From contig NZ_JAQGJD010000221.1 of assembly GCF_028290785.1 (NCBI RefSeq), positions 1 through 35,323 on the forward strand: a DNA stretch of 35,323 nucleotides. Reading direction: 5' to 3'. The stretch comes from Tardiphaga sp. Lineage in GTDB: Bacteria; Pseudomonadota; Alphaproteobacteria; Rhizobiales; Xanthobacteraceae. The position numbers were made by a program, and so were the translations under genes. Below are positions 3,073 to 29,709 of the stretch, one piece after another. The notes beneath the pieces were generated by a model. It ran no database searches and had not been told where the DNA came from. It was given only the letters and a program-made list of their open reading frames with translations. Each line of letters opens with the position of its first letter. Positions within the stretch are counted from its first letter, which is position 1.

Positions 3073-3079
3073 GAGCCGG

Positions 3080-3099: not shown

Positions 3100-3130
3100 T
3101 TCCTCCGGCCAGCCTTCTGTGAGATGAGAT

Positions 3131-3169: not shown

Positions 3170-3193
3170 GAAGCCGTGCATTGGGAGTGTTCG

Positions 3194-3883
3194 ATGCTGA
3201 TCTGCGTACCTGACGTCTTGAGCAAGAGCGATGTCGCGGATTTCCGCCGCATCATGGATGCCGCCGACTGGGAAGACGGCCGCTCCACCGCCGGTGCGCA
3301 GTCGGCACTGGTCAAACGTAACGAACAACTGCCGCCGGACAGCGACGTGGCGCGGGCGCTGGGCAATCGCATCATATCGGCTCTGACATCGAATCCCCGG
3401 TTCATCTCGGCAGCGATCCCGCTGCAGATATTTCCGCCGCTGTTCAACCGCTATGTGGCTTCGGACGGCCATCATTTCGGTATCCATGTCGATAACGCCG
3501 TGCGCGGCGACCGTCTCACGGGCTTGCGCATTCGCACCGATCTGTCGATCACGCTGTTCCTGTCGGAACCCGACGAATATGACGGTGGCGAGCTGATCGT
3601 CGAGGACAACTACGGTTCGCACGAGGTTAAGCTGGCGGCCGGCGACCTGGTGCTGTACCCCGCGTCCAGCCTGCATCTGGTGACGCCGGTGATATCAGGA
3701 ACCCGCGTCGCTTCGTTCTTCTGGTTGCAGAGCATGATCCGCGATGCGCATGCGCGCAGCATGATCTTCGACCTCGACAGCGCCATCCAGAACCTGGTGG
3801 TCCGACTCGGACGCGATGATCCGGAAACCGTTAAACTGACCGGCATCTACCACAACCTGATCCGGCACTGGGCCGAGGTGTGA
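3194..3883 (+). CDS. piuC: PKHD-type Fe(II)/2-oxoglutarate hydroxylase (PiuC/YbiX family)
   Basis: Cytoplasmic Fe2+-dependent dioxygenase of the PiuC/YbiX family, which commonly accompanies siderophore receptors and whose exact substrate is uncertain. The ATG at 3194 gives 229 aa, the usual family length. The iron triad is visible as HVD (in [11 protein letters not shown]) and the later His in [10 protein letters not shown]; the 2-oxoglutarate-binding Arg is the one in GTRVASFFW. The [10 protein letters not shown] segment and the C-terminal helical region ([19 protein letters not shown]) are typical. It lies downstream of receptor 1 and is separated from it by a strong terminator. A decayed copy of the C-terminal part lies at 6726-6872 behind receptor 2, showing that this gene was once duplicated with its receptor. 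Confidence 0.93.
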
Positions 3884-3893
3884 ACCCCGATAC

Positions 3894-3910
3894 TTTAGAG
3901 TCGCTCTCAA
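3894..3910. promoter_or_regulatory. Irr/ICE-like operator, distal site of receptor 2
   Basis: TTTAGAGTCGCTCTCAA is a near-palindrome matching 11 of 14 fixed ICE positions. It begins 11 bases after the piuC stop codon and about 250 bases before receptor 2, mirroring the distal site of receptor 1. Confidence 0.5.
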
Positions 3911-3970
3911 CTGTAACGCTGTCTTCGCTGTTCTGCCTCCCTTGCTTTTGTTTTCACGAGCGAAGTCTTG

Positions 3971-3987
3971 TCGAGAACGTTTCTAAC
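3971..3987. promoter_or_regulatory. Irr/ICE-like operator, proximal site of receptor 2
   Basis: TCGAGAACGTTTCTAAC has an intact core (AGAA-N3-TTCTAA) and matches 11 of 14 ICE positions. It lies just before the leader block shared with receptor 1. Confidence 0.5.
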
Positions 3988-4007
3988 AAGTTTCACGAGC
4001 GTTTCGA

Positions 4008-4068
4008 TCTAGACATATTCAAACATGGACTCGCCGTATTGCGGCCATGCTGCATTGACCTGCATTTC
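4008..4068 (+). promoter_or_regulatory. Conserved leader/promoter block of receptor 2
   Basis: Gap-free counterpart of 372-433: TCTAGA, ATTCAAACATG, then TTGACC at the same 28-base distance. The remaining bases to the receptor start hold no gene that I can support. Confidence 0.4.
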
Positions 4069-4146
4069 AACGCTCGGCTACTTCACCCAAGAACGATCAA
4101 CGCAGAACGAACTGCGTGATCCATTGGGTTTAGTACGGGGGCTAGA

Positions 4147-6534: not shown

Positions 6535-6569
6535 CGCGGCACGATCTGTGTTGATGCATTCCGGTTGGG

Positions 6570-6602
6570 CCGTGATGCGGCCGGTTTTCCGCCGCATCAC
6601 GG
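6570..6602 (+). terminator. Strong hairpin downstream of receptor 2
   Basis: CCGTGATGCGGC pairs perfectly with GCCGCATCACGG around a nine-base loop. It lies 36 bases after the receptor stop. No T-run follows, so intrinsic termination is uncertain; it may stabilise the mRNA 3' end. Part of the stem, TTTCCGCCGCATCA, is identical to codons near the start of piuC (around 3239), so it may also contain relic coding sequence. Confidence 0.5.
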
Positions 6603-6725
6603 CGGCGCAGGGGGGCGGTATGCACATCCGTGCAGCGCGTACGAGATTTGTTTGCTTCCAGTTTGCATCTGGCAATAGCTATCGCATCAGCCATGCGCGA
6701 GGCGGCTGTTTTCCGGCCGCGGGGC

Positions 6726-6872
6726 GTGGTACGGAATGCCCAAGCGCGCAGCATGATAGCCAATACCGACCGCGTTCTTCAAAGCCGTGTTGAATATCGA
6801 CGAGATGACCGCGAAACGGTCAAATTGAACGGCATATGTAACCATCTCATCCGCACATGGGCCGAGGTCTGA
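6726..6872 (+). pseudogene. Decayed C-terminal remnant of a second piuC
   Basis: In one frame, ending at the TGA at 6870-6872, this stretch encodes ARSMI, then RRDDRETVKLNGI, then [10 protein letters not shown]. It aligns end to end with the last ~48 residues of the intact PiuC at 3194-3883 ([28 protein letters not shown]). The rest of the hydroxylase, including the iron-binding His/Asp residues, is missing. Upstream sequence in the same frame shows no catalytic motif. It cannot be a functional dioxygenase. It sits behind receptor 2 exactly where intact piuC sits behind receptor 1, which points to duplication of a receptor-piuC unit followed by loss. Confidence 0.85.
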
Positions 6873-6877
6873 TCTTG

Positions 6878-6894
6878 TTTAGAATGAATCTTAA
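6878..6894. promoter_or_regulatory. Irr/ICE-like operator over the exbB start
   Basis: TTTAGAATGAATCTTAA matches 12 of 14 fixed ICE positions, the best match in the window. It begins six bases after the pseudogene stop and overlaps the likely exbB start codon (6884-6886). This would place an Irr site inside or downstream of the exbB promoter, as expected for a roadblock-type repressor site. Function is inferred. Confidence 0.5.
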
Positions 6895-7753
6895 GTTGCT
6901 GGCGGCGCTTGCCGTTCTGTCGCTCGCCTCGCCGCTGGCCGCGCAGCAGGTGACGGCGCCCCCGACCGCCGCACAGCCGACGCGGGTGCAGCCGCCTTCG
7001 TCCGCCATCGACGCCGCGGCGCCGGCGGAGCCGGCGAAATCCGCCAAGGCGGTGGTCGCCGCATCCATGCACGAGCTGTCGCCGTGGTCGATGTTCAAGA
7101 ATGCCGACATCATCGTGCAGGCGGTGATGATCGGCTTGGCCTTCGCGTCGCTGGTGACCTGGACCGTGGGCATTGCCAAGACTATCGAGCTATCGGCTGC
7201 GCAGCGCCGCCTGAAGAAATCGCTCCGCCGTATCGCCGATACCCGTTCTCTGTCGGAGGCGCAGCTCGCACTCGGCGAGAAGGAGAGCGTGCTGTCGTCG
7301 CTGCTTGCCGCTGCCATGCGCGAAGGGCGGATGTCGGCGGGGATCTCCAGCGACAGTGGTATCAAGGAGCGCGCCGCGTCGAGCTTTTCGGAAATCGTTC
7401 GCGCCGAGGCGCGCCGCGTCCGCTTCGGCATGGGCGCGCTGGCGACCATCGGCGCCACTTCGCCGTTCGTCGGCCTGTTCGGCACCGTGTGGGGCATCAT
7501 GAACAGCTTCATCGGCATTTCGAAGTCGCAGACCACCAACCTTGCGGTGGTTGCACCCGGCATCGCCGAAGCCTTGCTGGCGACCGCCATCGGTCTGGTC
7601 GCGGCGATCCCCGCGGTGATCATCTACAATCACTTCTCGCGCGTCACGAAGGGGTACCTCGAGCAGGTCAGCCGCGCCTCGGGAGCCGCCGGCCGGCTGC
7701 TGTCGCGCGACCTCGACCGCACCCATGTCTCCCACGCACGCGCGGCGGAATAA
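6884..7753 (+). CDS. exbB: ExbB proton channel subunit of the TonB system
   Basis: Inner-membrane proton-channel subunit (MotA/TolQ/ExbB family) that, with ExbD, energises TonB for the receptors upstream. The start at 6884 (289 aa) is chosen because it opens with a clean signal-like segment ([20 protein letters not shown]). The in-frame ATG at 6857 would overlap the pseudogene and add nine unsuited residues. After an Ala/Pro-rich periplasmic stretch come three membrane segments: [20 protein letters not shown], then after a cytoplasmic domain [20 protein letters not shown], and [20 protein letters not shown]. The [18 protein letters not shown] and [19 protein letters not shown] motifs are diagnostic. 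The long N-terminal extension is common in alphaproteobacterial ExbB. exbD follows after three bases. Confidence 0.95.
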
Positions 7754-7756
7754 CCC

Positions 7757-8227
7757 ATGGGCATGTCGCTGTCCGAAGGCTCCGATGACGACGACGATTT
7801 CGGCGAATCCCACGAAATCAACGTCACGCCCTTCATCGACGTTATTCTCGTCCTGCTGATCATCTTCATGGTGGCGGCGCCGCTTTCCACGGTGGATCTG
7901 CCGATCGACCTGCCGACCTCGACCGCGACGCCGCAGAAGAAACCGGACAAGCCGACCTATGTCAGCATCAAGTCCGATCTGGCGGTGGCGATCGGTGAGA
8001 ACATGGTCAAGCGCGTCGATCTGGTGCGTTCGCTCGATGCGATGCCCGACAGCAACAAGGACCGCGCGATCTTCCTGCGCGCCGACCGGGCGGTGCCCTA
8101 TGGCGACATGATGGACGTGCTGGAATTGCTGCGTTCCGGCGGCTACACGAAACTCAAACTGGTCACGCTGGAAGGCGTGCCGGATACGGGCGCCGTGCCG
8201 CCGTCGGCCGAGAAGCCGAAGCTCTGA
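7757..8227 (+). CDS. exbD: ExbD subunit of the TonB energy-transducing complex
   Basis: Single-pass inner-membrane protein of 156 aa that partners ExbB. After an acidic tract (DDDDD, residues 10-14) comes the ExbD signature INVTPFIDVILVLLIIFMVA, with the proton-carrying aspartate at D28 in the membrane segment. A periplasmic domain follows. An ATG two codons later is an alternative start. exbB lies 3 bases upstream and tonB about 17 bases downstream, so the three are almost certainly one transcript. Confidence 0.95.
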   Translation: MGMSLSEGSDDDDDFGESHEINVTPFIDVILVLLIIFMVAAPLSTVDLPIDLPTSTATPQKKPDKPTYVSIKSDLAVAIGENMVKRVDLVRSLDAMPDSNKDRAIFLRADRAVPYGDMMDVLELLRSGGYTKLKLVTLEGVPDTGAVPPSAEKPKL

Positions 8228-8244
8228 ACGAAACCGGTTTAGTG

Positions 8245-9036
8245 ATGTCCGACCTCGATGCAAAAAAGCCGTCGCGACGGCTGTGGATGATCGCGGCGCT
8301 TGGCGCCGTGCTTCTGCATGGCATCGGCATCGCGCTGGCGGTGACGACCATGGAATCCGAGGAGATGGACGACTCGCTCGGTGCGCCGGCCATCGAGGTT
8401 GGGCTGGAGATGATGTCGCCCAAGCTCGAGGCCACCGATCTGCCGCCGGGGCCGGACACCGACGCGTCCACCGCTTCGCCGGCGGTTGCCGAGCAGAAGG
8501 CCGAGGTCAAGGAGACCGATCTGCCGAAGGCGATCCCGCAGGAGAGCGAGGATCCCGACCGCGTGGTGACCACCAACGATTCCAAGAAGCCGACCGAGGA
8601 GCAGCCGGAGAAGCAGGCGGTGCAGCAGTCGGCCTCCACCGAATCCGTCGCCGCCGAGGCCACCGCGATGCCGAGTTCCGAAGCCGCGGTAGAAGGCCCG
8701 CGTTCGGTTGCGCCGGCGCAGGGTTCCGGCGACAGCGCGCGTCGCGTCAAGGTGACCTGGCAGAAGGAACTGGTGGCGCATCTCGACAAGCACAAGAAGT
8801 ATCCGGCCGAGCGCCAACAGAAGACCGCCGAGATCACCGTCAATTTTGAGATCGACCGTACCGGCAAGGTACTTGCAGTCGGCGTCGTCAAGAGTTCGGG
8901 CGATGCCGCGTTCGACGAGGCGGCGCTGGCGATGGTGCGCCGTTCCGATCCGCTGCCCCCGCCGCCGCCGCTCATCGCCGACGAAGGTTTGAGCTTTACG
9001 CTGCCGGTGATTTTTCGTGTGAAGGGCAAGGGTTAG
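8245..9036 (+). CDS. tonB: TonB energy transducer
   Basis: Periplasm-spanning TonB protein, 263 aa. One N-terminal membrane anchor (WMIAALGAVLLHGIGIALAV) carries the conserved in-membrane His. A long acidic, Glu/Pro/Ala-rich linker (about residues 40-160) is followed by the C-terminal TonB domain with YPAERQQKTAEITVNFEID, GVVKSSGDAAFDEAALAMV and the closing LPVIFRVKGKG. The linker is acidic rather than built of classic Pro-Lys repeats. A GTG at 8242 adds one residue and could equally be the start. It is the last gene of the exbB-exbD-tonB operon and very probably serves both receptors upstream. Confidence 0.92.
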   Translation: MSDLDAKKPSRRLWMIAALGAVLLHGIGIALAVTTMESEEMDDSLGAPAIEVGLEMMSPKLEATDLPPGPDTDASTASPAVAEQKAEVKETDLPKAIPQESEDPDRVVTTNDSKKPTEEQPEKQAVQQSASTESVAAEATAMPSSEAAVEGPRSVAPAQGSGDSARRVKVTWQKELVAHLDKHKKYPAERQQKTAEITVNFEIDRTGKVLAVGVVKSSGDAAFDEAALAMVRRSDPLPPPPPLIADEGLSFTLPVIFRVKGKG

Positions 9037-17924: not shown

Positions 17925-18908
17925 TTGCACATCCTCATCCTCGGCGCCGCCGGCATGGTCGGCCGCAAGCTCACTGAAAAGCTCGTGCGCGATGGCCGGC
18001 TCGGTAGCCGCGACATCACCAGGCTCACGCTGCAGGACGTTGTTGCGCCGGCGAAACCGTCCACCACCATTCCCGTCGAACTCGTTACCTCGGACTTCGC
18101 CGATCCCCATACCGCCGCGCCGCTGGTCGCCGGCAAGCCCGACGTGATCTTCCACCTCGCCGCAATCGTCTCCGGCGAGGCCGAAGCCGAGTTCGACAAG
18201 GGTTATCGCATCAACCTCGACGGCACCCGCTTCTTGATCGACGCCATCCGCGCCATCGGCGGCGGCTACAGGCCGCGCCTCGTCTTCACCTCGTCGATCG
18301 CCGTATTCGGTGCGCCGTTTCCCGAGAAAATCGGCGACGAGTTCTTCCACACCCCGCTGACCTCCTACGGCACGCAGAAGTCGATCTGCGAAATGCTGAT
18401 CGCCGACTATAGCCGCAAGGGATTTCTGGATGGCATCGGCATCCGGCTGCCGACCATATGCGTTCGCCCGGGCGCGCCGAACAAGGCGGCGTCGGGCTTC
18501 TTCTCAAATATCATTCGCGAGCCGCTCGCGGGGCATGAAGCTGTATTGCCGGTCAGCGAAGACGTGCGCCACTGGCACGCCTCGCCGCGCTCGGCGGTCG
18601 GCTTTCTCGTTCATGCCGGCACGATGGATCTCGCCGCGATGGGCGCGCGGCGTAATCTCAGCATGCCCGGCATGTCGGTCACGGTCGGCGAACAGATCGC
18701 CGCGCTGGAGCGCGTCGCCGGGAAGGGCGTCGTCGCCCGCATCAAGCGCGTGACCGATCCCGTCATCACCGGCATCGTATCCGGCTGGCCGCGCGATTTC
18801 GTCACCGACCGCGCCTTGAGCCTCGGCTTCACGACGGCCGAGAAGACGTTCGATGACATCATCCGGATTCACATCGAGGATGAGCTGGGCGGAAAGTTCG
18901 TGGCGTAA
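17925..18908 (+). CDS. denD: Extended SDR, D-erythronate dehydrogenase-like (DenD)
   Basis: NAD-dependent extended short-chain dehydrogenase, 327 aa, starting at a TTG after GGAG. The Rossmann motif is GAAGMVGRKL (residues 8-17), followed by DVIFHLAAIVSGEAEAEF, the catalytic Ser/Thr region FTSSIAVFG and the Tyr-x3-Lys motif YGTQKS. RLPTICVRPGAPNKAASGF and DVRHWHASPRSAVGF match my memory of D-erythronate dehydrogenases, which oxidise erythronate to 3-keto-erythronate. The usual partners (OtnC-type decarboxylase and OtnI isomerase) are not in the window, so a different sugar acid or a nucleotide-sugar-like substrate is possible. It lies at the end of the transporter cluster. Confidence 0.75.
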   Translation: MHILILGAAGMVGRKLTEKLVRDGRLGSRDITRLTLQDVVAPAKPSTTIPVELVTSDFADPHTAAPLVAGKPDVIFHLAAIVSGEAEAEFDKGYRINLDGTRFLIDAIRAIGGGYRPRLVFTSSIAVFGAPFPEKIGDEFFHTPLTSYGTQKSICEMLIADYSRKGFLDGIGIRLPTICVRPGAPNKAASGFFSNIIREPLAGHEAVLPVSEDVRHWHASPRSAVGFLVHAGTMDLAAMGARRNLSMPGMSVTVGEQIAALERVAGKGVVARIKRVTDPVITGIVSGWPRDFVTDRALSLGFTTAEKTFDDIIRIHIEDELGGKFVA

Positions 18909-19169: not shown

Positions 19170-20339
19170 ATGACCGCCAGCATCGTGGGATGGGCGCATA
19201 CGCCGTTCGGCAAGTTCGACGCCGAGACTGTGGAAAGCCTGGTCGTGAAGGTCGCCACCGAGGCGATGGCCGATGCCGGCATCTCCGCCGCCGATGTCGA
19301 TGAGATCGTACTCGGCCATTTCAACGCCGGCTTCTCGCCGCAGGATTTTACGGCCTCGCTGGTGCTGCAGGCCGATCCCGCGCTGCGCTTCAAGCCGGCC
19401 ACCCGCGTCGAGAACGCCTGCGCCACCGGCTCCGCTGCCGTGCAGGCCGGCGTGAAATCCATCGCCGCCGGCACCGCCAAAATTGTGCTGGTGGTCGGCG
19501 TCGAGCAGATGACTCGCACGCCCGGGCCGGAGATTGGCAAGAACCTGCTGCGCGCCTCTTATCTCCCGGAAGACGGCGAAACCCCCGCGGGCTTTGCCGG
19601 CGTGTTCGGCGGCATCGCGCAAAAATACTTCCAGAAGTATGGCGATCAGTCCGATGCTCTGGCGATGATCGCGGCGAAGAACCACGCCAATGGTGTGCAC
19701 AACCCCTACGCGCAGATGCGCAAGGACTTTGGCTTCGAGTTCTGTCGCTCCGAAAGCGAGAAGAATCCTTTCGTCGCCGGTCCCCTCAAGCGCACCGACT
19801 GCTCGCTGGTGTCGGACGGCGCCGCGGCCTTGGTGCTGACCGATTCCGAAACCGCGAAGGCGATGGGCAAGGCCGTGACCATCCGGTCCACCGCGCACGC
19901 GCAGGACTTCCTGCCGATGTCGAAGCGCGACATTTTGTTGTTCGAGGGCTGCACCGTAGCCTGGCAGCGCGCGCTGGAGGCCGCCGGCGTTACGCTTGAC
20001 GATCTCTCCTTTGTCGAGACCCACGACTGCTTCACCGTCGCCGAACTGATCGAATACGAGGCGATGGGCCTGACGGAGCGCGGGCAGGGCGCCCGCGCCA
20101 TCAAGGAAGGCTGGACCCAGAAGGACGGCAAGCTGCCGGTCAACCCGTCCGGCGGGCTGAAGGCCAAGGGCCATCCGATCGGCGCCACCGGCGTTTCCAT
20201 GCATGTGCTGAGCGCGATGCAGCTACTCGGCCAGGCGCCGGAAGGCATGCAGATCAAGAACGCAAAACTCGGCGGGATTTTCAACATGGGTGGCGCGGCG
20301 GTGGCGAATTACGTCTCGGTGCTGGAGCCCGCGAAGTAG
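19170..20339 (+). CDS. SCP2-type thiolase (acetyl-CoA acyltransferase family)
   Basis: Cytoplasmic thiolase of the SCP-x/SCP2 branch, 389 aa, expected to cleave 3-ketoacyl-CoA with CoA. GGGAG precedes the ATG. The nucleophilic Cys is C84 in ENACATGS; the catalytic His regions are THDCF (H285) and GLKAKGHPIGATG. The C-terminus (FNMGGAAVANYVSVLE) is typical of this branch, which lacks the CxGGG motif of classical thiolases. All catalytic residues are present, unlike in the second thiolase-fold protein at 24536. It is the first gene of an acyl-CoA catabolic run; the ligase starts six bases later, so the two are coupled. Chain-length specificity is unknown. Confidence 0.92.
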   Translation: MTASIVGWAHTPFGKFDAETVESLVVKVATEAMADAGISAADVDEIVLGHFNAGFSPQDFTASLVLQADPALRFKPATRVENACATGSAAVQAGVKSIAAGTAKIVLVVGVEQMTRTPGPEIGKNLLRASYLPEDGETPAGFAGVFGGIAQKYFQKYGDQSDALAMIAAKNHANGVHNPYAQMRKDFGFEFCRSESEKNPFVAGPLKRTDCSLVSDGAAALVLTDSETAKAMGKAVTIRSTAHAQDFLPMSKRDILLFEGCTVAWQRALEAAGVTLDDLSFVETHDCFTVAELIEYEAMGLTERGQGARAIKEGWTQKDGKLPVNPSGGLKAKGHPIGATGVSMHVLSAMQLLGQAPEGMQIKNAKLGGIFNMGGAAVANYVSVLEPAK

Positions 20340-20345
20340 CCCGCC

Positions 20346-21896
20346 ATGAATGTCGCGCAATGGCTGGCGGCATCGGCGCGGCTGCATCCCGACGCACCGG
20401 CGCTGCTGACTGGCACGAGGGTCGAGGCCGACTATGCGACCTTTGCGGCTCGCGCTGCCGCGATCGGGGCAGGGCTTGTTCGCGACTACCGCATTCAGCC
20501 CGGCGATCGCGTTGCGCTGTTCATGTCGAACTGCACGCCATATCTCGAATGCTTGTATGCGGTGTGGTGGATCGGCGCGGCGGCGATCCCGATCAACGCC
20601 AAACTGCACGGCCGCGAAGCTGCGTGGATTTGCGACAATGCCGGCTCGACGTTCGCGTTCGTCGATGACGACAGCAGCAAAGCGCTGGCCGCGGTCATGG
20701 AAGACATGCCGGCGGCCATGCAGATGCTGTCAGTCGAGTCAGCCGACTTCCACACCCTGCAGCACAACGACGGCGGCACCGCCTCGCCGCTGCCGCGCGA
20801 CGACCACGATCTCGCCTGGCTGTTCTACACCTCCGGCACCACTGGACGGCCGAAGGGCGTGATGCTCAGCCACGGCAATCTGGTGGCGATGTCGCTGTGC
20901 TATCTCGCCGATGTGGATTCCGTTGCTCAACGCGACGCCATCCTCTACGCCGCGCCGATCTCGCACGGCGCCGGTCTGTACAATTTCATCCACGTCCGCA
21001 TGGCCGCGCGCCATGTCATCCCGGAATCCGGCGGCTTCGATGCCGACGAGGTGCTCGATCTTGCTAAGGCCCTCGACGATGTTGCGATGTTCGCGGCGCC
21101 CACCATGGTGCGCCGCCTCGTCGATGCCGCGAAGAACCGCGGCGAAGCCGGCGAAGGCATCCGCACCATCGTCTACGGCGGCGGGCCGATGTATCTCGCC
21201 GATATCCGCGATGCCATCGCTATCATGGGCCAGCGCTTTGTGCAGATTTATGGCCAGGGCGAGTCGCCGATGACCATTACCTCGCTGCCGCGCGCCTGGC
21301 ATGCCGATGTCGATCATCCGCGCTACCTCGAGCGGTTGGCGTCCGTCGGCGTCGCCCAGAGCGTGATGGCGGTGCGGATTACCGGCGATGCCGGGCAGCC
21401 GCTGCCTGCGGGCCAAACCGGCGAGATCGAAGCGAAAGGCCCAGCCGTGATGCTCGGCTACTGGAATAATCCGAAAGCCAATGAAGAGACGCTGCGGAAC
21501 GGCTGGCTGCGCACCGGCGACGTCGGCCGGCTCGACGCGGACGGCTTTCTGACGCTGTCCGACCGTTCCAAGGATGTCATCATTTCCGGTGGTACCAACA
21601 TCTATCCGCGCGAGGTCGAGGAAGCGCTGCTGACCCACGCGGATGTCCGCGAGGTCTCGGCGATCGGCGTGCCCGATTCCGACTGGGGCGAGATCGTGGT
21701 CGCCTGCGTGGTGCTGGAAGAGGGCGCCACGGCCGACGACGCCGCGCTCGATGCGCATTGCCTCGAGGTCATCGCCCGCTTCAAGCGCCCGAAGCGCTAT
21801 GTCTATCTCGGCGCGCTGCCCAAGAACAATTACGGCAAGGTGCTGAAGACGGAGCTGCGGGAGATGATGAAGCCCAACACTCCGCCGTCATCCTGA
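20346..21896 (+). CDS. AMP-forming acyl-CoA synthetase/ligase
   Basis: ANL-superfamily ligase that activates a carboxylic acid to its CoA ester via an acyl-adenylate, 516 aa. The P-loop-like motif is FYTSGTTGRPKGVMLS. The adenylate region has IYGQGE and the hinge WLRTGDVGRLDADGF, followed by DRSKDVIISGGTNIYPREVE. The C-terminal catalytic Lys is in NNYGKVLK. Everything needed for activity is visible. The final two codons and the stop (TCA TCC TGA) are part of the intergenic repeat that begins here, so the C-terminus was probably reset by the repeat. Substrate unknown; the adjacent thiolase and acyl-CoA dehydrogenase suggest a fatty, branched or cyclic acid. Confidence 0.93.
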   Translation: MNVAQWLAASARLHPDAPALLTGTRVEADYATFAARAAAIGAGLVRDYRIQPGDRVALFMSNCTPYLECLYAVWWIGAAAIPINAKLHGREAAWICDNAGSTFAFVDDDSSKALAAVMEDMPAAMQMLSVESADFHTLQHNDGGTASPLPRDDHDLAWLFYTSGTTGRPKGVMLSHGNLVAMSLCYLADVDSVAQRDAILYAAPISHGAGLYNFIHVRMAARHVIPESGGFDADEVLDLAKALDDVAMFAAPTMVRRLVDAAKNRGEAGEGIRTIVYGGGPMYLADIRDAIAIMGQRFVQIYGQGESPMTITSLPRAWHADVDHPRYLERLASVGVAQSVMAVRITGDAGQPLPAGQTGEIEAKGPAVMLGYWNNPKANEETLRNGWLRTGDVGRLDADGFLTLSDRSKDVIISGGTNIYPREVEEALLTHADVREVSAIGVPDSDWGEIVVACVVLEEGATADDAALDAHCLEVIARFKRPKRYVYLGALPKNNYGKVLKTELREMMKPNTPPSS

Positions 21897-22142: not shown

Positions 22143-23363
22143 ATGGGACCACTTCACGGGATTAGGATCATCGACATGACGTCGGTGATGATGGGGCCAT
22201 ATTGTACCCAGACGCTGGGCGATTACGGTGCCGATGTCATCAAGGTGGAGTCCCCCGAAGGCGACGTGGTTCGCAGCATCGGGCCGATGCGCAACCCCGG
22301 CATGGGGCCGATCTTCCTCAACACCAACCGCAGCAAGCGTTGCATCTGCCTCGACCTCAAGAAGGAGGAAGGCCGCACCGCGCTGCTGAAGCTGGCCGAG
22401 ACCGCCGACGTGCTGGTCTACAATGTCCGCCCGGCCGCGATGGCGCGGCTCAATCTGGGTTACGAAGCCTGCGCGGCGATCAATCCCCGATTGATCTATG
22501 CCGGCGTGTTCGGCTTCAGTCAGGCCGGTCCCTATGCCGCCAAGCCAGCCTATGACGACCTGATCCAGGGCGCTACCGCGCTGCCGGCGCTGAACGCGCG
22601 GATATCAAGCGACGGCGTGCCGCGCTACGTCCCGAATGCGCTGGTCGACCGCATCGTCGGCCTCACCGCGCTGGGCGCCATTCTCGCCAGCGTCGTGCAC
22701 CGCGACCGCACCGGGGAGGGCCAGCGCGTCGATATCCCGATGTTCGAGACCATGGCGAGCTTCATGATGGGCGACCACATGGGCGGGCTCACCTTCGACC
22801 CGCCGCTCGACAAAGGCGGCTATTCCCGGCATCTGTCACCGGACCGTCGGCCGTACCAGACCTCCGACGGCTACATCTGCGCGATGGTCTACAACGACAA
22901 GCAGTGGAAAAGCTTCCTCAAGCATGTCGGCCGCGAGGAGTTGTTCGACGATCCGCGCTTCGCGACCTTCCCGCAGCGCATCCAGCATATCGACGCCGTC
23001 AATGCCGAACTGTCGCGCATCTTCACGACGCGCACCACGGCGGAGTGGGCTGACCTGCTCGACGAGGCCGACGTGCCTTCGACGCCGATGCACACGCTGG
23101 AAAGCATGATGCAGGATCCGCATATGGTCGCGACGGACTTCTTCCAGAAGGTGGAGCATCCGACCGAGGGCGCGGTGCGCAGCATGAAGGTCTCGGCGAC
23201 GTGGTCGAAAACCCCCGTCAACCCGACGCGGCTCGCCTCGCATCTCGGTGAGCAGAACGCCGAGGTGCTGGCCGAGGTCGGCTATACCGCGGCGCAGATC
23301 GCGAAGCTGCATCAGGACGGCGTGTTGAAGCAAGCCGTCATGCCCGACACCTCGCAGGTATAG
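22143..23363 (+). CDS. CaiB/BaiF family class III CoA-transferase
   Basis: Class III acyl-CoA:carboxylate CoA-transferase, moving CoA between acids. The ATG at 22143 (406 aa) follows GGGAG and gives the usual family N-terminus (GPLHGIRIIDMTSVMMGPY). The in-frame ATG at 22095 lies in sequence reading CCCGGAATGACGG, like the end of a repeat, and is unlikely. The family segment LGDYGADVIKVESPEGDVVR is present, and the catalytic Asp is in YDDLIQG. It is followed four bases later by the acyl-CoA dehydrogenase. It offers a second means of forming the CoA thioester in this cluster; donor and acceptor are unknown. Confidence 0.92.
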   Translation: MGPLHGIRIIDMTSVMMGPYCTQTLGDYGADVIKVESPEGDVVRSIGPMRNPGMGPIFLNTNRSKRCICLDLKKEEGRTALLKLAETADVLVYNVRPAAMARLNLGYEACAAINPRLIYAGVFGFSQAGPYAAKPAYDDLIQGATALPALNARISSDGVPRYVPNALVDRIVGLTALGAILASVVHRDRTGEGQRVDIPMFETMASFMMGDHMGGLTFDPPLDKGGYSRHLSPDRRPYQTSDGYICAMVYNDKQWKSFLKHVGREELFDDPRFATFPQRIQHIDAVNAELSRIFTTRTTAEWADLLDEADVPSTPMHTLESMMQDPHMVATDFFQKVEHPTEGAVRSMKVSATWSKTPVNPTRLASHLGEQNAEVLAEVGYTAAQIAKLHQDGVLKQAVMPDTSQV

Positions 23364-23367
23364 CCGC

Positions 23368-24534
23368 ATGGATTTCGCCTACGACGCCAACCAGGAATCC
23401 ATCCGCGACGCGATCGAAAAGATCTGCGCGCGCTTCGACGATGCCTACTGGCTGAACAAGGACAAGGAGGGCGGCTTTCCGATCGACTTCCACAGAGCGA
23501 TGGCCGATGCCGGTTGGCTCGGCATCTGCATTCCCGAGGAATATGGCGGCTCCGGCCTCGGCATCTCGGACGCCGCGATCATGATGCGGACGATCTCGGA
23601 ATCCGGCGCCGGCATGTCCGGCGCCTCCGCGGTCCACATGAACGTGTTCGGGCTCAATCCGGTGGTGGTGTTCGGCACACCCGAGCAATGCGCGCGGATG
23701 CTGCCGCCGATCGTGTCGGGCGCCGAGAAAGCCTGCTTCGCCGTCACCGAACCGAACACCGGCCTCAATACCACGCAGCTCAAGACCCGTGCGGTACGCG
23801 ACGGCGACAAGTACGTGGTCAACGGCCAGAAGGTGTGGATTTCGACCGCGCAGGTCGCTGAGAAAATCCTGTTGCTGGCGCGCACCACGCCGCTAGAAGA
23901 CGTCAAGAAGCCGACCCACGGCCTCAGCCTGTTTTACACCGACTTCGACCGCAGCAAGATCGCCGTGCACGAGATCGAGAAGATGGGCCGCAAGGCGGTC
24001 GATTCCAACGAACTGTTCATTGCGGATTTCGAGATACCGGTGGCGGACCGTATCGGCGAGGAGGGCCGCGGCTTCGACTACATCCTGCACGGCATGAACC
24101 CCGAGCGCATCCTGATCGCCGCCGAGGCGGTGGGTCTAGGCCAGGCCGCGCTGAAGCGCGCCGCGGAGTATGCGAAGAACCGCATCGTGTTCAACCGTCC
24201 GATCGGCCAGAACCAGGCGATCCAGCATCCCCTCGCCAAGAACTGGATGGAGCTGGAAGCGGCGTGGTTGATGGTGATGTCGGCCGGCTGGCAGTATGAC
24301 CAGGATCTGCCGTGCGGTCCGGCCGCCAACGCCGCAAAGTATCTCGCCGGCGAGGCCGGCTATCACGCCTGCGAGCAGGCGGTGATGACCCATGGGGGCT
24401 TCGGCTACGCCAAAGAATATCATGTCGAGCGCTATCTGCGGGAATCCCTGATCCCCCGCATCGCGCCGATCAGCCCGCAACTGATCCTGTCGTTCATTGC
24501 CGAGAAGGTGCTCGGCCTGCCGAAGTCGTATTGA
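23368..24534 (+). CDS. Acyl-CoA dehydrogenase
   Basis: FAD-dependent acyl-CoA dehydrogenase, 388 aa, introducing the alpha-beta double bond and passing electrons to ETF. FAD/substrate motifs: CFAVTEPNTGLNTTQL and VNGQKVWISTAQ. The C-terminal domain has GGFGYAKEYHVERYLRES; the Glu of KEY is placed like the catalytic base of medium-chain enzymes. The usual YEGT-Q motif after it is replaced by IAPISPQ, which may mean an altered FAD or subunit contact. Its stop is one base before the thiolase-like gene. No enoyl-CoA hydratase is found nearby, so that step must be encoded elsewhere. Confidence 0.93.
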   Translation: MDFAYDANQESIRDAIEKICARFDDAYWLNKDKEGGFPIDFHRAMADAGWLGICIPEEYGGSGLGISDAAIMMRTISESGAGMSGASAVHMNVFGLNPVVVFGTPEQCARMLPPIVSGAEKACFAVTEPNTGLNTTQLKTRAVRDGDKYVVNGQKVWISTAQVAEKILLLARTTPLEDVKKPTHGLSLFYTDFDRSKIAVHEIEKMGRKAVDSNELFIADFEIPVADRIGEEGRGFDYILHGMNPERILIAAEAVGLGQAALKRAAEYAKNRIVFNRPIGQNQAIQHPLAKNWMELEAAWLMVMSAGWQYDQDLPCGPAANAAKYLAGEAGYHACEQAVMTHGGFGYAKEYHVERYLRESLIPRIAPISPQLILSFIAEKVLGLPKSY

Positions 24535-24535
24535 G

Positions 24536-25672
24536 ATGAGCTACATCACCGGTGTCGGCCTCACGCCGTTCGGCAAGCATGAGGGCTCCTCCACCCTCGA
24601 CCTGATGAGCACGGCCGCCGAAGCCGCCATCGCCGACGCCGGGCTGAAGCGCGGCGATATCGACGGCTTCCTGTGCGGCTATTCCACCACCATGCCGCAT
24701 ATCATGCTGGCCACCGTGTTCGCCGAGCATTTCGGCATCACGCCGTCCTACGCCCACGCCATCCAGGTCGGCGGCGCCACCGGCATGGCGATGGCCATGC
24801 TCGCACACACGCTGGTCGATGCCGGCGTGGCGAAACACGTCCTCGTGGTCGGCGGCGAGAACCGGCTCACCGGGCAGAGCCGCGACGCCTCGATCCAGGC
24901 GCTGGCCCAGGTCGGCCACCCCACCTACGAAGTGCCGCTCGGCCCGACCATCCCGGCCTATTACGGCCTCGTCGCCAGCCGCTACATGCACGAATATGGT
25001 GTCACCGAAGAAGACCTCGCGGAATTTGCGGTCTTGATGCGCGCGCATGCGAAAACCCATCCCGGCGCGCAGTTTTACGAAGCCATCACCGTCGCCGACG
25101 TGATGGCGTCCAAGCCGATCGCGAGCCCGCTGAAACTGCTGGATTGCTGCCCGGTGTCCGACGGCGGCGCCGCCTTCGTGGTCAGCCGCGAGCCCACCGG
25201 CGAGATCGGCATCCGCGTCCGCGGCGCAGCCCAGGCGCATACCCATCAGCATGTCACGGCCGCGCCGGCGCTGTCCGAACTTGGCGCCGAGATCGCCCTT
25301 GCGCGGGCCAAGGCAGTCTCCGGCCTGCAGATCGCCGACGTCCGCTACGCCGCCGTTTACGACAGTTTCACGATCACCCTCGCGATGCTGCTGGAGGATC
25401 TCGGCCTCGCCGGTCGTGGCGAGGCCGCCGCCCGTGTCCGCGCCGGTCATTTCGGCCGCGACGGCGCGATGCCGCTCAACACCCATGGCGGGCTGTTGAG
25501 CTATGGCCATTGCGGCGTCGGCGGCGCTATGGCGCATCTGGTCGAGACCCATCTGCAGATGACCGGCCGCGCCGGCAACCGCCAGGTCCGCGACGCCTCG
25601 GTGGCGCTGCTGCATGGCGATGGCGGCGTGCTGTCGTCGCACGTCAGCATGTTCCTGGAGCGCGTGCGATGA
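24536..25672 (+). CDS. Thiolase-fold protein lacking the nucleophilic Cys (probable acyl-CoA aldolase subunit)
   Basis: SCP2-thiolase fold, 378 aa from the ATG one base after the dehydrogenase stop. In the position of the catalytic Cys (ENACATG in the thiolase at 19170) this protein reads QVGGATG, with G80 replacing Cys. The HDCF motif is YDSFT (Y275), and KGHPIGATG is SYGHCGVGG (Y323, H325). These changes rule out ordinary thiolysis. They are typical of members that work with a DUF35 partner, such as the steroid side-chain aldolase Ltp2 with ChsH2, where tyrosines act in retro-aldol cleavage. The next gene, overlapping by four bases, is exactly such a DUF35 protein. Function as an aldolase for a 3-hydroxyacyl-CoA is inferred. 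Confidence 0.88.
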   Translation: MSYITGVGLTPFGKHEGSSTLDLMSTAAEAAIADAGLKRGDIDGFLCGYSTTMPHIMLATVFAEHFGITPSYAHAIQVGGATGMAMAMLAHTLVDAGVAKHVLVVGGENRLTGQSRDASIQALAQVGHPTYEVPLGPTIPAYYGLVASRYMHEYGVTEEDLAEFAVLMRAHAKTHPGAQFYEAITVADVMASKPIASPLKLLDCCPVSDGGAAFVVSREPTGEIGIRVRGAAQAHTHQHVTAAPALSELGAEIALARAKAVSGLQIADVRYAAVYDSFTITLAMLLEDLGLAGRGEAAARVRAGHFGRDGAMPLNTHGGLLSYGHCGVGGAMAHLVETHLQMTGRAGNRQVRDASVALLHGDGGVLSSHVSMFLERVR

Positions 25673-26037
25673 GCCAGCTCAAGCCGGCCGCCGACTGGAC
25701 CACCGATGTGGAAGCGATCAGCTATCAGTGCTGCGCCCTCTGCCACGAAGTGCAATATTTCCGCCGTGCCTTTTGCGCCGCTTGCGGCGCGACCGATCCC
25801 GTCGACACGATCGCCAGCGGGGAGGGCACCGTCTATGCCACGTCCCTCGTGCTGCGGGCGGCGACCCCGGAGGCACGCGCGCACGTGCCCTACAACATCG
25901 TTCTCATCGACACCGCCGAAGGCTTTCGCATGATGGCCCACGGCGACCCCTCTCTCGCCATCGGCGACAAGGTGCAGGCGCGCTACACGCGCTTCACCGG
26001 CCGCCTCGTTCCCTATTTCGAAAGGACTTCTTCATGA
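25669..26037 (+). CDS. DUF35 zinc-ribbon/OB-fold protein, partner of the thiolase-like protein
   Basis: Small 122-aa protein with an N-terminal zinc ribbon, C22-x2-C25-x10-C36-x2-C39 (CALC and CAAC), followed by an OB-fold region (GEGTVYATSLVLRAA, YNIVLIDTAEGFRMMAH, GDKVQARYTRF). This is the Rubredoxin-like/DUF35 architecture of the ChsH2 C-terminal part and of scaffold proteins bound to thiolase homologues. The start ATGA overlaps the thiolase-like stop, and its own stop overlaps the next start, so the three genes are translationally coupled. It probably forms a complex with the upstream protein, recruiting acyl-CoA or stabilising the active site. No enzymatic motif of its own. Confidence 0.88.
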   Translation: MSQLKPAADWTTDVEAISYQCCALCHEVQYFRRAFCAACGATDPVDTIASGEGTVYATSLVLRAATPEARAHVPYNIVLIDTAEGFRMMAHGDPSLAIGDKVQARYTRFTGRLVPYFERTSS

Positions 26038-28127
26038 GCCGTCTCCGCGCCGCCCTCGATCCGAAATCCGTGGCCATCATCGGCGCCTCCGAAAATCCCA
26101 ACAAGGTCGGCGGCCGGCCGGTGCACTACCTGCAGAAGTTCGGCTTCAAGGGCAAGATCTACCCGATCAATCCGACGCGCACCGTGATCCAGGGCGAGAA
26201 GTGCTATCCGAGCCTGCAGGATCTGCCGGAAGCGCCCGAGATGGTGATCGTGGCCGTGGCCGGCGACAATGCGATTGCTGCGGTGGAAGCGTGCGCCGCC
26301 TTCGGCGTCAAGATCGCGGTTGTCATGGCATCGGGGTTCGGTGAGGTCGATGCTATCGAAGGCAAGGCGAAAGAGCGCCGCATGGTCGAGGTTGCGCACA
26401 AGGCCGGTATGCGCATCGTCGGGCCGAACTCGCAGGGCCTCGCCAACTTCGGCACCGGCGCCATTGCCTCGTTTTCCACCATGTTCATGGAGTTCGATCG
26501 CGTGGAGGGCCATGTGGCGATGCTGAGCCAGAGCGGTGCGCTGTCCACCGTGCCGGTCGGCTTTCTCAACCCGCGCGGCATCGGCGTGCGTCATAGCCAC
26601 GCCACCGGCAACGATGCCGACATCACCGTCGGCGAACTGGCTATCGCGGTAGCGGAAGACACCCAGGTCAAGCTGATGCTGCTCTATCTCGAGAGCATCC
26701 CGGAAAAGAAATACCTCGAAGAGCTTGCGGCCGTGGCGCTCGATCGCGACCTGCCGATCATCGCGCTGAAGTCGGGCCGTTCCGAAGCCGGCCGTCAGGC
26801 GGCGCAGTCGCATACCGGCGCGCTGGCGAATGAAGACCGCGTCGTCGATGCGTTCTTCGAACACCATGGTATCTGGCGCGCGCCGGACATGCGCGGCCTT
26901 GTGGAGGCCACCGAACTCTATCTGAAGGGCTGGAAGCCGAAGGGCCGGCGCCTGGTCGCGATCAGCAATTCCGGCGCGGTCTGCGTTATGACGGCGGACG
27001 CCGCCACGACCGTGGGCATGCCGATGGCGAAGCTGGCGGATGCCACCGACAAGAAGCTGAAGGGCATTTTGCCGAGCTTCGCCACCACCACCAATCCGAT
27101 CGATCTCACCGCTGCGCTGCTGTCGAACAGCAACCTGTTCGGCGACATCCTGCCGGTGATCGCGGAAGATCCCGCGGCGGATGCTTTCGTTATCGGCGTG
27201 CCGGTCGCCGGCCCCGGCTATGACGTGCCGGCCTTCGCCCGCGACTCTGCGGCTTTCGCGGCGCAGACCGGCAAGCCGCTGGTGGTAGCTGCTACCCAGC
27301 CAAGCGTCGCCAGGGAATTCCAGGCGCAGGGCGTCTCGGTATTCCCGACCGAAGTCGAAGCGGTGACCGCACTGAACCAGTTCGTGGCACATCGCGAGTT
27401 GATGGCCCGCACGATCGAACGTCGCGCCACGCGCGGAAAATCCGATCCGTTGATCCCGACCGACGGTGCGACAACGATGTTGAACGAGGCCGACAGCCTG
27501 GCGCTGCTGGCGGCGCGCGGCATTCCGGTGGTGCCGTATCGCCTCTGCCATTCGCGCGCCGAAGCCATCGCCGCGTTCGAGGCGATCGGCGGCCCGGTGG
27601 TGGTGAAGGGCTGCTCGGCTGATATTGCGCACAAGTCTGAATTGGGGTTGGTCAAGCTGAAGATCAATTCACGGGAGGACGCCGGCGACGTCTATGCCGA
27701 GATGGAGGACATCATCCGCAAGCACGGCTCGCGCTTTGACGGCGTCATCGTCGCGGCGATGGCCGGTGGCCGGCGCGAGATCATGATCGGCGCGCACCGC
27801 GATCCGGTATTCGGCCCGGTGGTCGCGGTCGGCGATGGCGGCAAATATGTCGAGGTGTTCAAGGACACTACGCTGCTGCTGCCGCCGTTTTCGAAAGACG
27901 ACGCGAAGGAAGCGCTCGGCAAACTGCGTATCGCACCACTGTTCGAGGGCGTGCGTGGCGAGCCGCCAATGGACCTCGATGCGCTCAGCGACGCGGTGGT
28001 CAAGATCGGCGAGCTGATGCGCGACGCCTCCGCCAAGGTGATGAGCATCGACCTCAACCCGGTGATGCTCGACAGCCAGGGCAAGGGATGTGTGGTGGTC
28101 GATGCCGTGGTGTTCCAGGGCGCGTAG
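26034..28127 (+). CDS. NDP-forming acyl-CoA synthetase (acetate-CoA ligase, ADP-forming family)
   Basis: Fused alpha-beta acyl-CoA synthetase of 697 aa that makes acyl-CoA from acid, CoA and ATP with release of ADP, or runs in reverse. Start ATG at 26034 overlaps the DUF35 stop. Order: CoA-binding Rossmann domain (DPKSVAIIGASENPNKVG, residues 9-26), succinyl-CoA-ligase-like domains with the phosphorylated His in QSHTGALANED (H260), and a C-terminal ATP-grasp domain from about residue 490 (GGPVVVKGCSADIAHKSELG; end SIDLNPVML). All key motifs are intact. It is the second ligase in the cluster, suggesting either two different acids or energy recovery from a product such as acetyl- or propionyl-CoA. 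Confidence 0.92.
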   Translation: MSRLRAALDPKSVAIIGASENPNKVGGRPVHYLQKFGFKGKIYPINPTRTVIQGEKCYPSLQDLPEAPEMVIVAVAGDNAIAAVEACAAFGVKIAVVMASGFGEVDAIEGKAKERRMVEVAHKAGMRIVGPNSQGLANFGTGAIASFSTMFMEFDRVEGHVAMLSQSGALSTVPVGFLNPRGIGVRHSHATGNDADITVGELAIAVAEDTQVKLMLLYLESIPEKKYLEELAAVALDRDLPIIALKSGRSEAGRQAAQSHTGALANEDRVVDAFFEHHGIWRAPDMRGLVEATELYLKGWKPKGRRLVAISNSGAVCVMTADAATTVGMPMAKLADATDKKLKGILPSFATTTNPIDLTAALLSNSNLFGDILPVIAEDPAADAFVIGVPVAGPGYDVPAFARDSAAFAAQTGKPLVVAATQPSVAREFQAQGVSVFPTEVEAVTALNQFVAHRELMARTIERRATRGKSDPLIPTDGATTMLNEADSLALLAARGIPVVPYRLCHSRAEAIAAFEAIGGPVVVKGCSADIAHKSELGLVKLKINSREDAGDVYAEMEDIIRKHGSRFDGVIVAAMAGGRREIMIGAHRDPVFGPVVAVGDGGKYVEVFKDTTLLLPPFSKDDAKEALGKLRIAPLFEGVRGEPPMDLDALSDAVVKIGELMRDASAKVMSIDLNPVMLDSQGKGCVVVDAVVFQGA

Positions 28128-28226: not shown

Positions 28227-28740
28227 CCGATCGCGTCTTGACGAAAATCCTATCGTGGATTATAAGCCGCTATCTGTCATGGCCGGGGCGTCTGATCAGC
28301 GCAGCGGCGATAGACAGGGCCGATGACCAAGGTGGAGCGCCGAGAGGTGCCGCGCCCTACGTCATTGGGCGCGGGCGGCTGGCGTTATCAGCCGCCCGGG
28401 CGGACCGCGTCATGGTCTGCCCCAAAGGCGTCTCGCAAACGCCTTAGCGCCTCCCGCCGCTCCCCCGGCCTCGCGCTTGATCGCGAGGCTTCGGGCACAC
28501 CCCGGGCGCAAGCGCACCGCGGCAACGGCTTCGCTTGCTCTTATTTCTGCAGCACCTTTGCGCAGGACACCGATGCGAAAGGATGACGACGCGCGAACAG
28601 CTTGCTGTTGTGGCGGCCCATGGCCTGAGGTAGCGTAACCGGCAAGCGGAATATAATTCCGCAGCATGGAATGGGATGGCGGCGCGTAACGATTGATCAT
28701 CGATCAGTCGCTGGATGCGTCGCCCCGAGGGAAACGCATC
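28227..28740. other. Long intergenic region before the IclR regulator
   Basis: About 510 bases with no gene that I can support. Short open frames here (up to about 95 codons on either strand) have arginine- and proline-rich low-complexity translations, poor start context and no recognisable domain. The AT-richer stretch around 28240-28280 could hold a promoter. The last 60 bases hold the inverted repeat at 28694 and the regulator's ribosome site (GAGGGAAA). Confidence 0.5.
28694..28706. promoter_or_regulatory. Inverted repeat upstream of the IclR gene, possible operator
   Basis: TGATC-ATC-GATCA is a perfect five-base inverted repeat with a three-base spacer, about 35 bases before the regulator start. 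IclR proteins often bind short palindromes near their own promoter. The assignment is inference. Confidence 0.35.
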
Positions 28741-29709
28741 ATGGGACGACGCTCCGAACGACTTAGCAAACAGGGCATGCTCGCCAGCGATCTCGCCGGC
28801 GATGGCGACGTCATCCAGGTGGTGTCGCGCGCCTTCGATATCCTGCGCTGCTTCGAAGGCCACGATGCGCGCCTCGGCAATCTCGAAATCTCCAACCGCT
28901 GCGGCCTGCCGCGCTCCACGGTGTCGCGGCTCACGCATACGCTGACGCGGATGGGCCAGCTCGCTTATCTGCCCGGCGACCAGAAGTATCGCATCGGCCC
29001 CAGCGCCGTGGCGATGAGCACCTCGATGATGCGCGGATTGCAGGTCCGCAACCTGATCCGGCTGCGGCTGCAGGAAGTCGCCGAGCAGATTCCCGGCACC
29101 ATCGGTTTCACGATTCCCGATCGATTCCACATGGTCTATCTGGAATACGCCCGCGCCGAGAATGCGCTCGGGCTGCATTCGACCACCGGCAGCCGCATTG
29201 CGATGGGCCGCACAGCGGCCGGTCATGCCTATATTGCGGCGCTGGACGAAGACGTTGGCAACGCGCTGATCACCGAGATGTCGCGCGAGATGCCGGAGGA
29301 TTCCAAGATCCTGCGCGGCAGGATCGAGCGCAATCGGCAATCGTTGCGTGAGCACGGTCATGTCACTGCGGGCGGCATGTTCAGCCCGCACATCACCGGT
29401 ATCGCGGCGCCGATCTGGTCGCCGCAATACCAGACCTTCGTGGTCGTCACCATCGGGCTGTTGTCGGCGATGTATGACGAGGCGCGCCTGCATGACGAGG
29501 TCGCGCCGATCCTGATGAAGCTGAGCGGCGCCGTTGCCGCCATGGTGCAGAATGCCGACAGCGGACTGACAAGCGCACCGGCGTCCGACGCGCGCGCGAC
29601 GCCGGTCGCACCGAAGAAAATTCCTGCGGAGCAAGTGAATGAACTGGAAGCCGGAACTCGACGACCTCTCCCGGCGCGAAGCGTTCGCGCAGGAGATGGG
29701 CGGCGCTGA
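28741..29709 (+). CDS. IclR family transcriptional regulator
   Basis: DNA-binding regulator, 322 aa from the ATG at 28741, chosen over the TTG at 28693 because GAGGGAAA lies at good spacing. The N-terminal winged helix-turn-helix (about residues 24-85) contains SRAFDILRCFEG, EISNRCGLPRSTVSRLTHTL and YRIGPSAV. The C-terminal effector domain (about 100-270) includes MGRTAAGHAYIAAL and ITGIAAPIWSP. After the usual end (LSGAVAAMVQNAD), about 50 more residues of low complexity follow, and the gene overlaps the next by 71 bases. It probably controls the acyl-CoA cluster in response to a pathway intermediate; the effector is unknown. Confidence 0.9.
   Translation: MGRRSERLSKQGMLASDLAGDGDVIQVVSRAFDILRCFEGHDARLGNLEISNRCGLPRSTVSRLTHTLTRMGQLAYLPGDQKYRIGPSAVAMSTSMMRGLQVRNLIRLRLQEVAEQIPGTIGFTIPDRFHMVYLEYARAENALGLHSTTGSRIAMGRTAAGHAYIAALDEDVGNALITEMSREMPEDSKILRGRIERNRQSLREHGHVTAGGMFSPHITGIAAPIWSPQYQTFVVVTIGLLSAMYDEARLHDEVAPILMKLSGAVAAMVQNADSGLTSAPASDARATPVAPKKIPAEQVNELEAGTRRPLPARSVRAGDGRR

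Follow-up and report, generated by a model that had tools for sequence, protein, structure and literature searches.

A Cys-less thiolase-fold protein and its DUF35 partner from Tardiphaga sp.: a predicted acyl-CoA (retro-)aldolase

Background

Thiolase-fold acyl-CoA aldolases that work with a DUF35 protein are represented by two characterized members, Ltp2-ChsH2 of Thermomonospora curvata (6ok1) and CtSal-Shy of Comamonas testosteroni (9myr). In these enzymes the base of the retro-aldol reaction is reported to be Tyr294 (Ltp2) or Tyr302 (Sal) and the acid Tyr344 (Ltp2) or Cys304 (Sal), the backbone of a glycine contacts the substrate hydroxyl, and Tyr302 and Cys304 of Sal have been probed by mutagenesis (PMC12329534; this and the other papers are cited from the available excerpts). 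Such pairs also serve outside steroid metabolism, as with IpfD/IpfE of plasmid pIBU218, the pair of ibuprofen degradation, which is reported to release propionyl-CoA (PMC9195938). Here we describe a Cys-less thiolase-fold protein (TLP) and its DUF35 partner, encoded on a 35,323-nucleotide stretch of Tardiphaga sp. (contig NZ_JAQGJD010000221.1, hereafter the window). On the residues and relationships reported below, we consider it likely that the two constitute a DUF35-assisted thiolase-fold acyl-CoA (retro-)aldolase. TLP belongs to a class with Gly, YDSF and His at the active-site positions, a functional study of which was not found in the open-licence PMC literature.

Results and discussion

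Active-site residues of TLP

The TLP gene (24536..25672, forward strand, as are all genes of the window given with coordinates in this form; ATG at 24536, TGA at 25670-25672) encodes 378 amino acids with the active-site pattern G80 / Y275-D-S-F278 / H325. For contrast we used a protein outside the aldolase, the Cys thiolase of the same window (19170..20339; C/HDCF/H), which scored 701.2 bits against NF005704 (cut-off 412) and shares 28% identity with TLP in a BLASTP pairwise alignment. Gly80 of TLP aligns with Cys84 of this thiolase, YDSF (275-278) with HDCF, and SYGHCGVGG with KGHPIGATG, the His of GHP being retained as His325. Of the three motif residues of thiolases, TLP lacks the Cys and the His of HDxF and keeps the third, His325. 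An earlier sequence-only reading of this DNA had pointed to all three replacements, and the alignment bears it out, although that reading missed the His retained within the third. G80, Y275, D276, F278 and H325 were invariant in 20 of 20 sequences (the window protein and 19 relatives of 38-94% identity).

The distribution of these residues was then surveyed in 97 non-redundant thiolase-superfamily representatives, consisting of open reading frames (ORFs) from fetched loci (L handles below), the window protein, PDB references and IpfD. Gly80 and Tyr275 occurred together in 71 and Cys and His in 26, with no mixed case, so that the two replacements described by the sequence-only reading are coupled throughout. 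Position 325 was His in all 26 Cys proteins; in the 71 Gly proteins it was His in 58, Tyr in 10 and Gln in 3. The HDxF His was replaced by Tyr in every one of the 58 Gly/His325 proteins. At position 277 this Gly/Tyr/His class has Ser (26), Ala (23) or Cys (9), and since Ala stands there in 23 of 58, the acid site of Sal cannot be general for the class. All three Gln325 proteins (Sal and L281; L193), from two lineages, carry Cys277, as if an acid were needed at one of the positions 277 and 325.

Phylogeny

A careful maximum-likelihood tree of the 97 rows, including the 26 Cys thiolases, was built from 385 columns after the motif columns had been removed. It replaced a first tree of 80 rows with 5 Cys thiolases, the sample of which had been collected largely by searching with the window protein; the 97-row sample is itself biased to relatives of the window protein and to Pseudomonadota, and four rows have very long branches. 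The 26 Cys/His and 71 Gly/Tyr rows split at one branch with support of 100/100, and both characterized aldolases, Ltp2 and Sal, fell on the Gly/Tyr side with TLP. The window protein grouped with Cys-less proteins and not with Cys thiolases, the latter being the placement that the sequence-only reading had named as speaking against it. On this tree position 275 must change once, position 325 four times and position 277 thirteen times. TLP lies in a 9-row clade (100/100) within a 14-row clade (100/100), all G/YDSF/H and without Ltp2, IpfD or Sal. Ltp2 and IpfD lie in a 12-row clade (99/95) with Tyr at 325 in 10 rows and His in two (L198 and L284), Sal has one relative beside it (100/99), and 4u4e falls in a 33-row clade (100/99).

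The same data bear on whether TLP could be a true thiolase with its nucleophile relocated to another Cys, which we judge highly improbable. Relatives are annotated as thiolase or acetyl-CoA acetyltransferase, the best NCBIfam model for TLP is an acetyl-CoA acetyltransferase (NF004811, PRK06158), and Cys204 is invariant in 20 of 20 sequences. However, TLP reached only 280 bits with that model (cut-off 421), its clade excludes all 26 Cys thiolases, and many relatives have Ser, Pro or Ala in place of Cys326; Cys204 is not a replacement nucleophile, because the 19170 thiolase has it beside its own.

Comparison with known systems

By alignment, Gly80, Tyr275, Ser277 and His325 of TLP are equivalent to Gly89, Tyr302, Cys304 and Gln352 of Sal, and to Gly83 (our own count), Tyr294, His296 and Tyr344 of Ltp2. 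The Ltp2-ChsH2 pair resembles the TLP pair in the thiolase fold, Gly in place of Cys, the Tyr of YDxF and a C4-type DUF35 protein. The sequence-only reading had given the locus the composition of Ltp2-ChsH2, which holds for these features and fails elsewhere, as Ltp2 has YDHF with His296 where TLP has Ser277, its acid Tyr344 where TLP has His325, and a place in another clade. Ltp2 also has a 2-residue gap after the 344/325 position, which TLP does not have. CtSal shares with TLP the Gly and the Tyr, was its best Foldseek match, and has a loop (LSFGQSG) near that of TLP (LSYGHCG), but it differs in its essential Cys304, in Gln352 and in clade. Its DUF35 protein Shy has a C3H1 zinc site and is joined to a MaoC hydratase (PMC12329534), whereas that of the window is of C4 type and free-standing.

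IpfD was taken as L077:13643-14827 from the gene order and the locus numbers in PMC9195938, the record itself giving a hypothetical protein. It has the Gly and YDAF; unlike TLP, it carries Tyr at the 325 position and belongs to the Ltp2 clade, and it is 29% identical to the window protein. Plasmid pIBU218 also carries a second, Ltp2-like pair (L077:939-2503; YDHF, Tyr at 344) with enoyl-CoA hydratase (ECH) and CaiB genes. The closest solved sequence (2.9e-50) is 4u4e, a 'putative thiolase' of Sphaerobacter thermophilus, which has the same G/YDSF/H pattern but sits in a different clade of the Gly/Tyr side. We know of no function for 4u4e.

TbSLP (5ab4-5ab7) and mycobacterial TLP1 are thiolase-like and Cys-less as TLP is; TbSLP is reported to lack an associated DUF35 protein (PMC12329534), while the window TLP has one. 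Two further explanations are suggested by this group. One is that TLP is a non-catalytic acyl-CoA binding or scaffold protein like mycobacterial TLP1. MsTLP1 is reported to carry Gly102 in place of the Cys and to lack thiolase activity, but also to conserve none of the thiolase catalytic residues (PMC3406046, excerpts), while the window TLP keeps His325 and all 20 TLP sequences keep Tyr275, Asp276 and His325, which makes a scaffold role very unlikely. The other is that His325 serves, as in Cys-less condensing enzymes, in the decarboxylation or retro-Claisen-like cleavage of thioesters of 3-keto or malonyl-CoA type. TbSLP, which is close to TLP in structural score (see below), is reported to decarboxylate malonyl-CoA very slowly, at 0.005 per s, whereas Sal is reported not to decarboxylate malonyl-CoA (PMC12329534); as the retro-aldol Tyr of Ltp2 and Sal is present in 58 of 58 Gly/His325 proteins, we regard this chemistry as quite unlikely.

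An aldolase assignment would fit the following scheme, modelled on Ltp2 and Sal, in which the active site of TLP is probably a Tyr/His pair. With no Cys nucleophile, the acyl-enzyme of thiolases would not form. Tyr275 would deprotonate a 3-hydroxyacyl-CoA, the hydroxyl of which would lie against the backbone of Gly80, and the C2-C3 bond would break to give an aldehyde or ketone and the enolate of acetyl- or propionyl-CoA. His325, a residue retained from thiolases at the place of the Ltp2 acid Tyr344, would most likely protonate this enolate or hold it. The DUF35 protein, presumably in complex with TLP, would shape the substrate cleft, as is reported for Sal.

Predicted structure

The AlphaFold2 model of TLP (predicted local distance difference test, pLDDT, 94.2; predicted TM-score, pTM, 0.93) shows a complete SCP2-type thiolase fold. 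Foldseek with this model returned Sal first (3.5e-36) and TbSLP next, and VIA-align gave Z scores of 54.8 for 6esq, 53.9 for TbSLP, 52.5 for Sal, 51.7 for 7yvy, 49.5 for Ltp2 and 48.0 for 4u4e. Comparison of folds was rejected as a test of aldolase against thiolase, all SCP2-type structures scoring alike.

The DUF35 partner and its pairing with TLP

The partner gene (25669..26037; ATG at 25669, TGA at 26035-26037) overlaps the TLP gene by four bases (ATGA), as the sequence-only reading had stated, and encodes a protein of 122 amino acids with a C4 zinc ribbon and an OB fold. Its assignment to DUF35, made in that reading, was upheld both by Pfam (PF01796, OB_ChsH2_C; 42.2 bits, cut-off 27.1) and by the predicted structure (pLDDT 93.0). 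Among solved structures the model was closest to the DUF35 domain of ChsH2 from the Ltp2 complex, at a Z of 13.6, in a tie (scores within 1) with 6esq, 9myr, 9vbt and 6htj, the last of these a DUF35 protein that stands alone. DUF35 chains of thiolase-type complexes scored Z 12.4-13.6, the lone DUF35 protein 3irb 9.2, and other folds 6.5 and below. The zinc-ribbon Cys residues 22, 25, 36 and 39 (C-x2-C-x10-C-x2-C) were invariant in 23 of 23 sequences.

Of the 47 DUF35 matches in 58 genomes of the class, 42 had a same-strand thiolase-superfamily match within 700 bases, and a DUF35 gene adjoined all 20 TLP matches at E<=1e-80. Together with the phylogeny and the residues, this pairing supports the class proposed in the sequence-only reading, an acyl-CoA aldolase with a DUF35 partner. 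In the wide loci, a same-strand DUF35 gene was called for 50 of 81 thiolase-like ORFs and for none of 15 HDCF ORFs, 13 of the latter being orthologues of the 19170 gene; the figure of 50 is an undercount, because the gene caller missed DUF35 genes seen by annotation or tblastn (L039, L044, L049, L051, L052, L074, L075, L237 and the second L071 pair), and the 58-genome count is the fairer one.

The window genome has three DUF35 matches, each beside a Cys-less TLP. The two further pairs are at G000:C209:664-2150 (L002; YDSF/CNNH) and G000:C278:31431-32805 (L001, L068; YDAF/SYMH), the latter adjoining proteins that cluster with the AtuA-family protein of L071 and L072 and with the small protein that accompanies it there. 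Nine genomes of the class (G579:C6, G584:C1, G573:C1, G574:C19, G544:C58, G540:C68, G546:C1, G561:C7 and G571:C2) have a second type of DUF35, in open frames of 487-515 amino acids that lie close to thiolase-superfamily genes, and the classified neighbours of these frames (L250, L251, L255) are of Cys type.

Operon and neighbourhoods

The DUF35 gene overlaps by four bases (ATGA) an ADP-forming acyl-CoA synthetase gene (26034..28127; Pfam CoA_binding_2, Succ_CoA_lig and ATP-grasp_5). Upstream of TLP lie an acyl-CoA dehydrogenase gene (23368..24534; PF02771/02770/00441), separated by 1 base, and, 4 bases before this, a family III CoA-transferase gene of CaiB type (22176..23363; PF02515), the start of which is taken from the gene caller and could be 22095, 22128 or 22176. 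From this spacing alone, the five genes from CaiB through dehydrogenase, TLP and DUF35 to synthetase are likely to form one transcription unit, which is preceded by the Cys thiolase and an AMP-forming ligase (19170-21896) and followed by an IclR-type regulator (28738..29709; PF09339/PF01614). Neither the synthetase nor the dehydrogenase matched an NCBIfam model at its cut-off. Substrate would be supplied through activation by the ADP-forming CoA ligase or the CaiB transferase and desaturation by the dehydrogenase, with no gene of the operon for the hydration.

What relatives conserve is the TLP-DUF35 core, frequently accompanied by an ADP-forming CoA ligase (close 3' of TLP in L039, L041, L043, L050-L052, L071, L072, L074 and L214-L216), and the other neighbours vary by clade. 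Recurrent beside Gly/Tyr genes are ADP-forming CoA ligases, acyl-CoA dehydrogenases, MaoC/ECH hydratases, CaiB transferases and carboxylate importers, a set that fits the breakdown of carboxylic acids as CoA esters. Among 104 same-strand neighbours in 35 Gly/Tyr loci we counted 11 acyl-CoA dehydrogenases, 9-10 ADP-forming CoA ligases, 9 MaoC proteins, 7 short-chain dehydrogenases/reductases (SDR), 6 ECH and 5 CaiB proteins, and among 48 neighbours in 14 Cys/His loci 6 SDR, 3 MaoC and 3 acyl-CoA dehydrogenases. The signature sought, a hydratase gene with no 3-hydroxyacyl-CoA dehydrogenase gene, did not tell the two sets of loci apart; 3-hydroxyacyl-CoA dehydrogenase families were in neither list (best 25 of 63 and 75 families). 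DUF35- and thiolase-like neighbours had been removed before the scan (126 to 104 and 49 to 48), 6 and 2 DUF35 proteins remaining, and three thiolase-like genes were left unclassified. L293, which contributed no neighbours, was counted as Gly/Tyr; it is probably a Cys protein that was read wrongly, as L250, which covers the same place, has C/HDCF/H.

MaoC hydratase genes stand beside DUF35 in L057, L075, L076 and L235. In relatives of 48-51% identity two of them lie directly 3' of DUF35 (annotated in L075 and L076, the same clusters in L057), which is the hydratase-aldolase order of the steroid systems, whereas the window operon has no MaoC gene. TctC binding proteins and AtuA-family proteins occur in L071 and L072. 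On a Paracoccaceae plasmid (L073:11986-18021) and an actinobacterial plasmid (L074:6487-15610), TLP genes lie beside a divergent split transketolase, a glycerol dehydrogenase and an SDR, a set which we take to resemble apiose catabolism. Apionyl-CoA, terpene and ketone substrates were considered from such neighbours and nothing decisive was found. In L046-L049, L053, L217 and L218 the pair lies among genes that seem unrelated, judged from their first residues, so neighbours are weak evidence.

The sequence-only reading had also proposed a tertiary or ring-attached substrate that cannot be oxidized to a ketone. Nothing here shows this, and a scan of 17 window proteins gave no match to any ECH family; no steroid family was above its cut-off among the window proteins scanned either. 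A tertiary or ring-attached substrate is possible by analogy with the ibuprofen pair, the ring chemistry of which makes it the precedent.

The operon also bears on whether the same fold and partner might work in the condensing direction, adding acetyl- or propionyl-CoA to an aldehyde or ketone, for example for the entry of small ketones into CoA metabolism. Aldol reactions are reversible, and the window operon offers ligases, with a carboxyltransferase downstream. From the acetone cluster of D. arcticum, high levels of proteins 04022 and 04023 are reported during growth on ketones, with 04021 detected only on acetone and isopropanol (PMC8084838), a parallel that would apply if 04022 is Cys-less. 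However, another role was proposed for the acetyltransferases of that paper (PMC8084838), both characterized family members cleave (PMC12329534), and the dehydrogenase and CoA-activation genes indicate breakdown, so that we find a condensing role rather unlikely.

Several observations weigh against the retro-aldolase assignment. The top structural Z score belongs to a Cys acetoacetyl-CoA thiolase (6esq). DUF35 proteins also partner Cys thiolases (BbsAB and the 6esq thiolase), and 22 of the 39 weaker TLP matches entered, some of them Cys thiolases, likewise have DUF35. The activity of Sal C304S was undetectable (PMC12329534), and TLP has Ser at the equivalent position 277. His360, present in 49 of the 58 Gly/Tyr/His proteins, is another candidate acid, and His325 may keep only its thiolase role in the oxyanion hole or in holding the enolate. 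The His325 protein L284 is nested among the Tyr rows of the Ltp2 clade, so residue 325 is not a clean clade marker. The neighbour tallies do not separate aldolase from thiolase operons, the control being small and similar, and the window operon has no recognized hydratase, which leaves the origin of a 3-hydroxyacyl-CoA unexplained.

Spread of the family

Relatives of TLP were present at E<=1e-40 in 75 of 149 genomes of the family, and with a profile at E<=1e-80 in 71 of 289 genomes of the class and 39 of 398 of the phylum. A genome scan gave at least 594 pattern matches, of which at least 590 were confirmed relatives, and among the matches listed 80 loci of 82-90% identity were kept, 74 of them named Bradyrhizobium. 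The actinobacterial plasmid of L074 carries a relative at 52% identity. The gene is common and not a rarity of the window genome. After the TLP-DUF35 pair of L046 stands a C-terminal TLP fragment of 198 amino acids (L046:12361-12954; 74% identical to the window TLP across 188 residues), apparently a duplication remnant.

Other genes of the window

A D-erythronate dehydrogenase (17925-18908; NF043036, 372.7 bits, cut-off 325) lies upstream, and its neighbours are an ABC transporter of sugar type and an IlvD/Edd-type dehydratase. In L036 (2038-3634), L038, L040 and L044, genes for 2-keto-3-deoxygluconate (KDG) kinase and 2-keto-3-deoxy-6-phosphogluconate (KDPG) aldolase precede the Cys thiolase, only the L036 pair having been scanned. 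The upstream transporter and dehydrogenase, and the KDG kinase and KDPG aldolase of some relatives in the same family, look like a separate sugar-acid module. At 496-9036, two long similar receptor-like genes with related N-termini (496-3072 and 4147-6534) flank a small oxygenase-like ORF (3176-3883), and ExbB/ExbD/TonB-like ORFs stand at 6857-9036; by reading alone, the group looks like an iron-uptake cluster.

Conclusions

At slightly less than even chances, we propose that Ltp2 and Sal are derived branches of a larger bacterial family of DUF35-assisted aldolases with Tyr/His as the standard pair, the GHP His having taken on the role of acid, or of holding the enolate, once Cys had changed to Gly and His to Tyr. 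In Ltp2 and IpfD a Tyr standing where this His was would later have become the acid, and in Sal the Cys of YDxF, and the window gene would be the Bradyrhizobium/Tardiphaga version, with a non-steroid 3-hydroxyacyl-CoA of its own. Genes of this family are currently annotated as thiolase or acetyl-CoA acetyltransferase, and we estimate from the scan that there are thousands. The Gly/Tyr versus Cys/His rule offers a simple sorting test for any such gene. Should members of the family prove to be aldolases, the final chemistry predicted for many beta-oxidation routes would be wrong, and the family would represent an unexplored set of biocatalysts for cleaving C-C bonds and, in reverse, for forming them.

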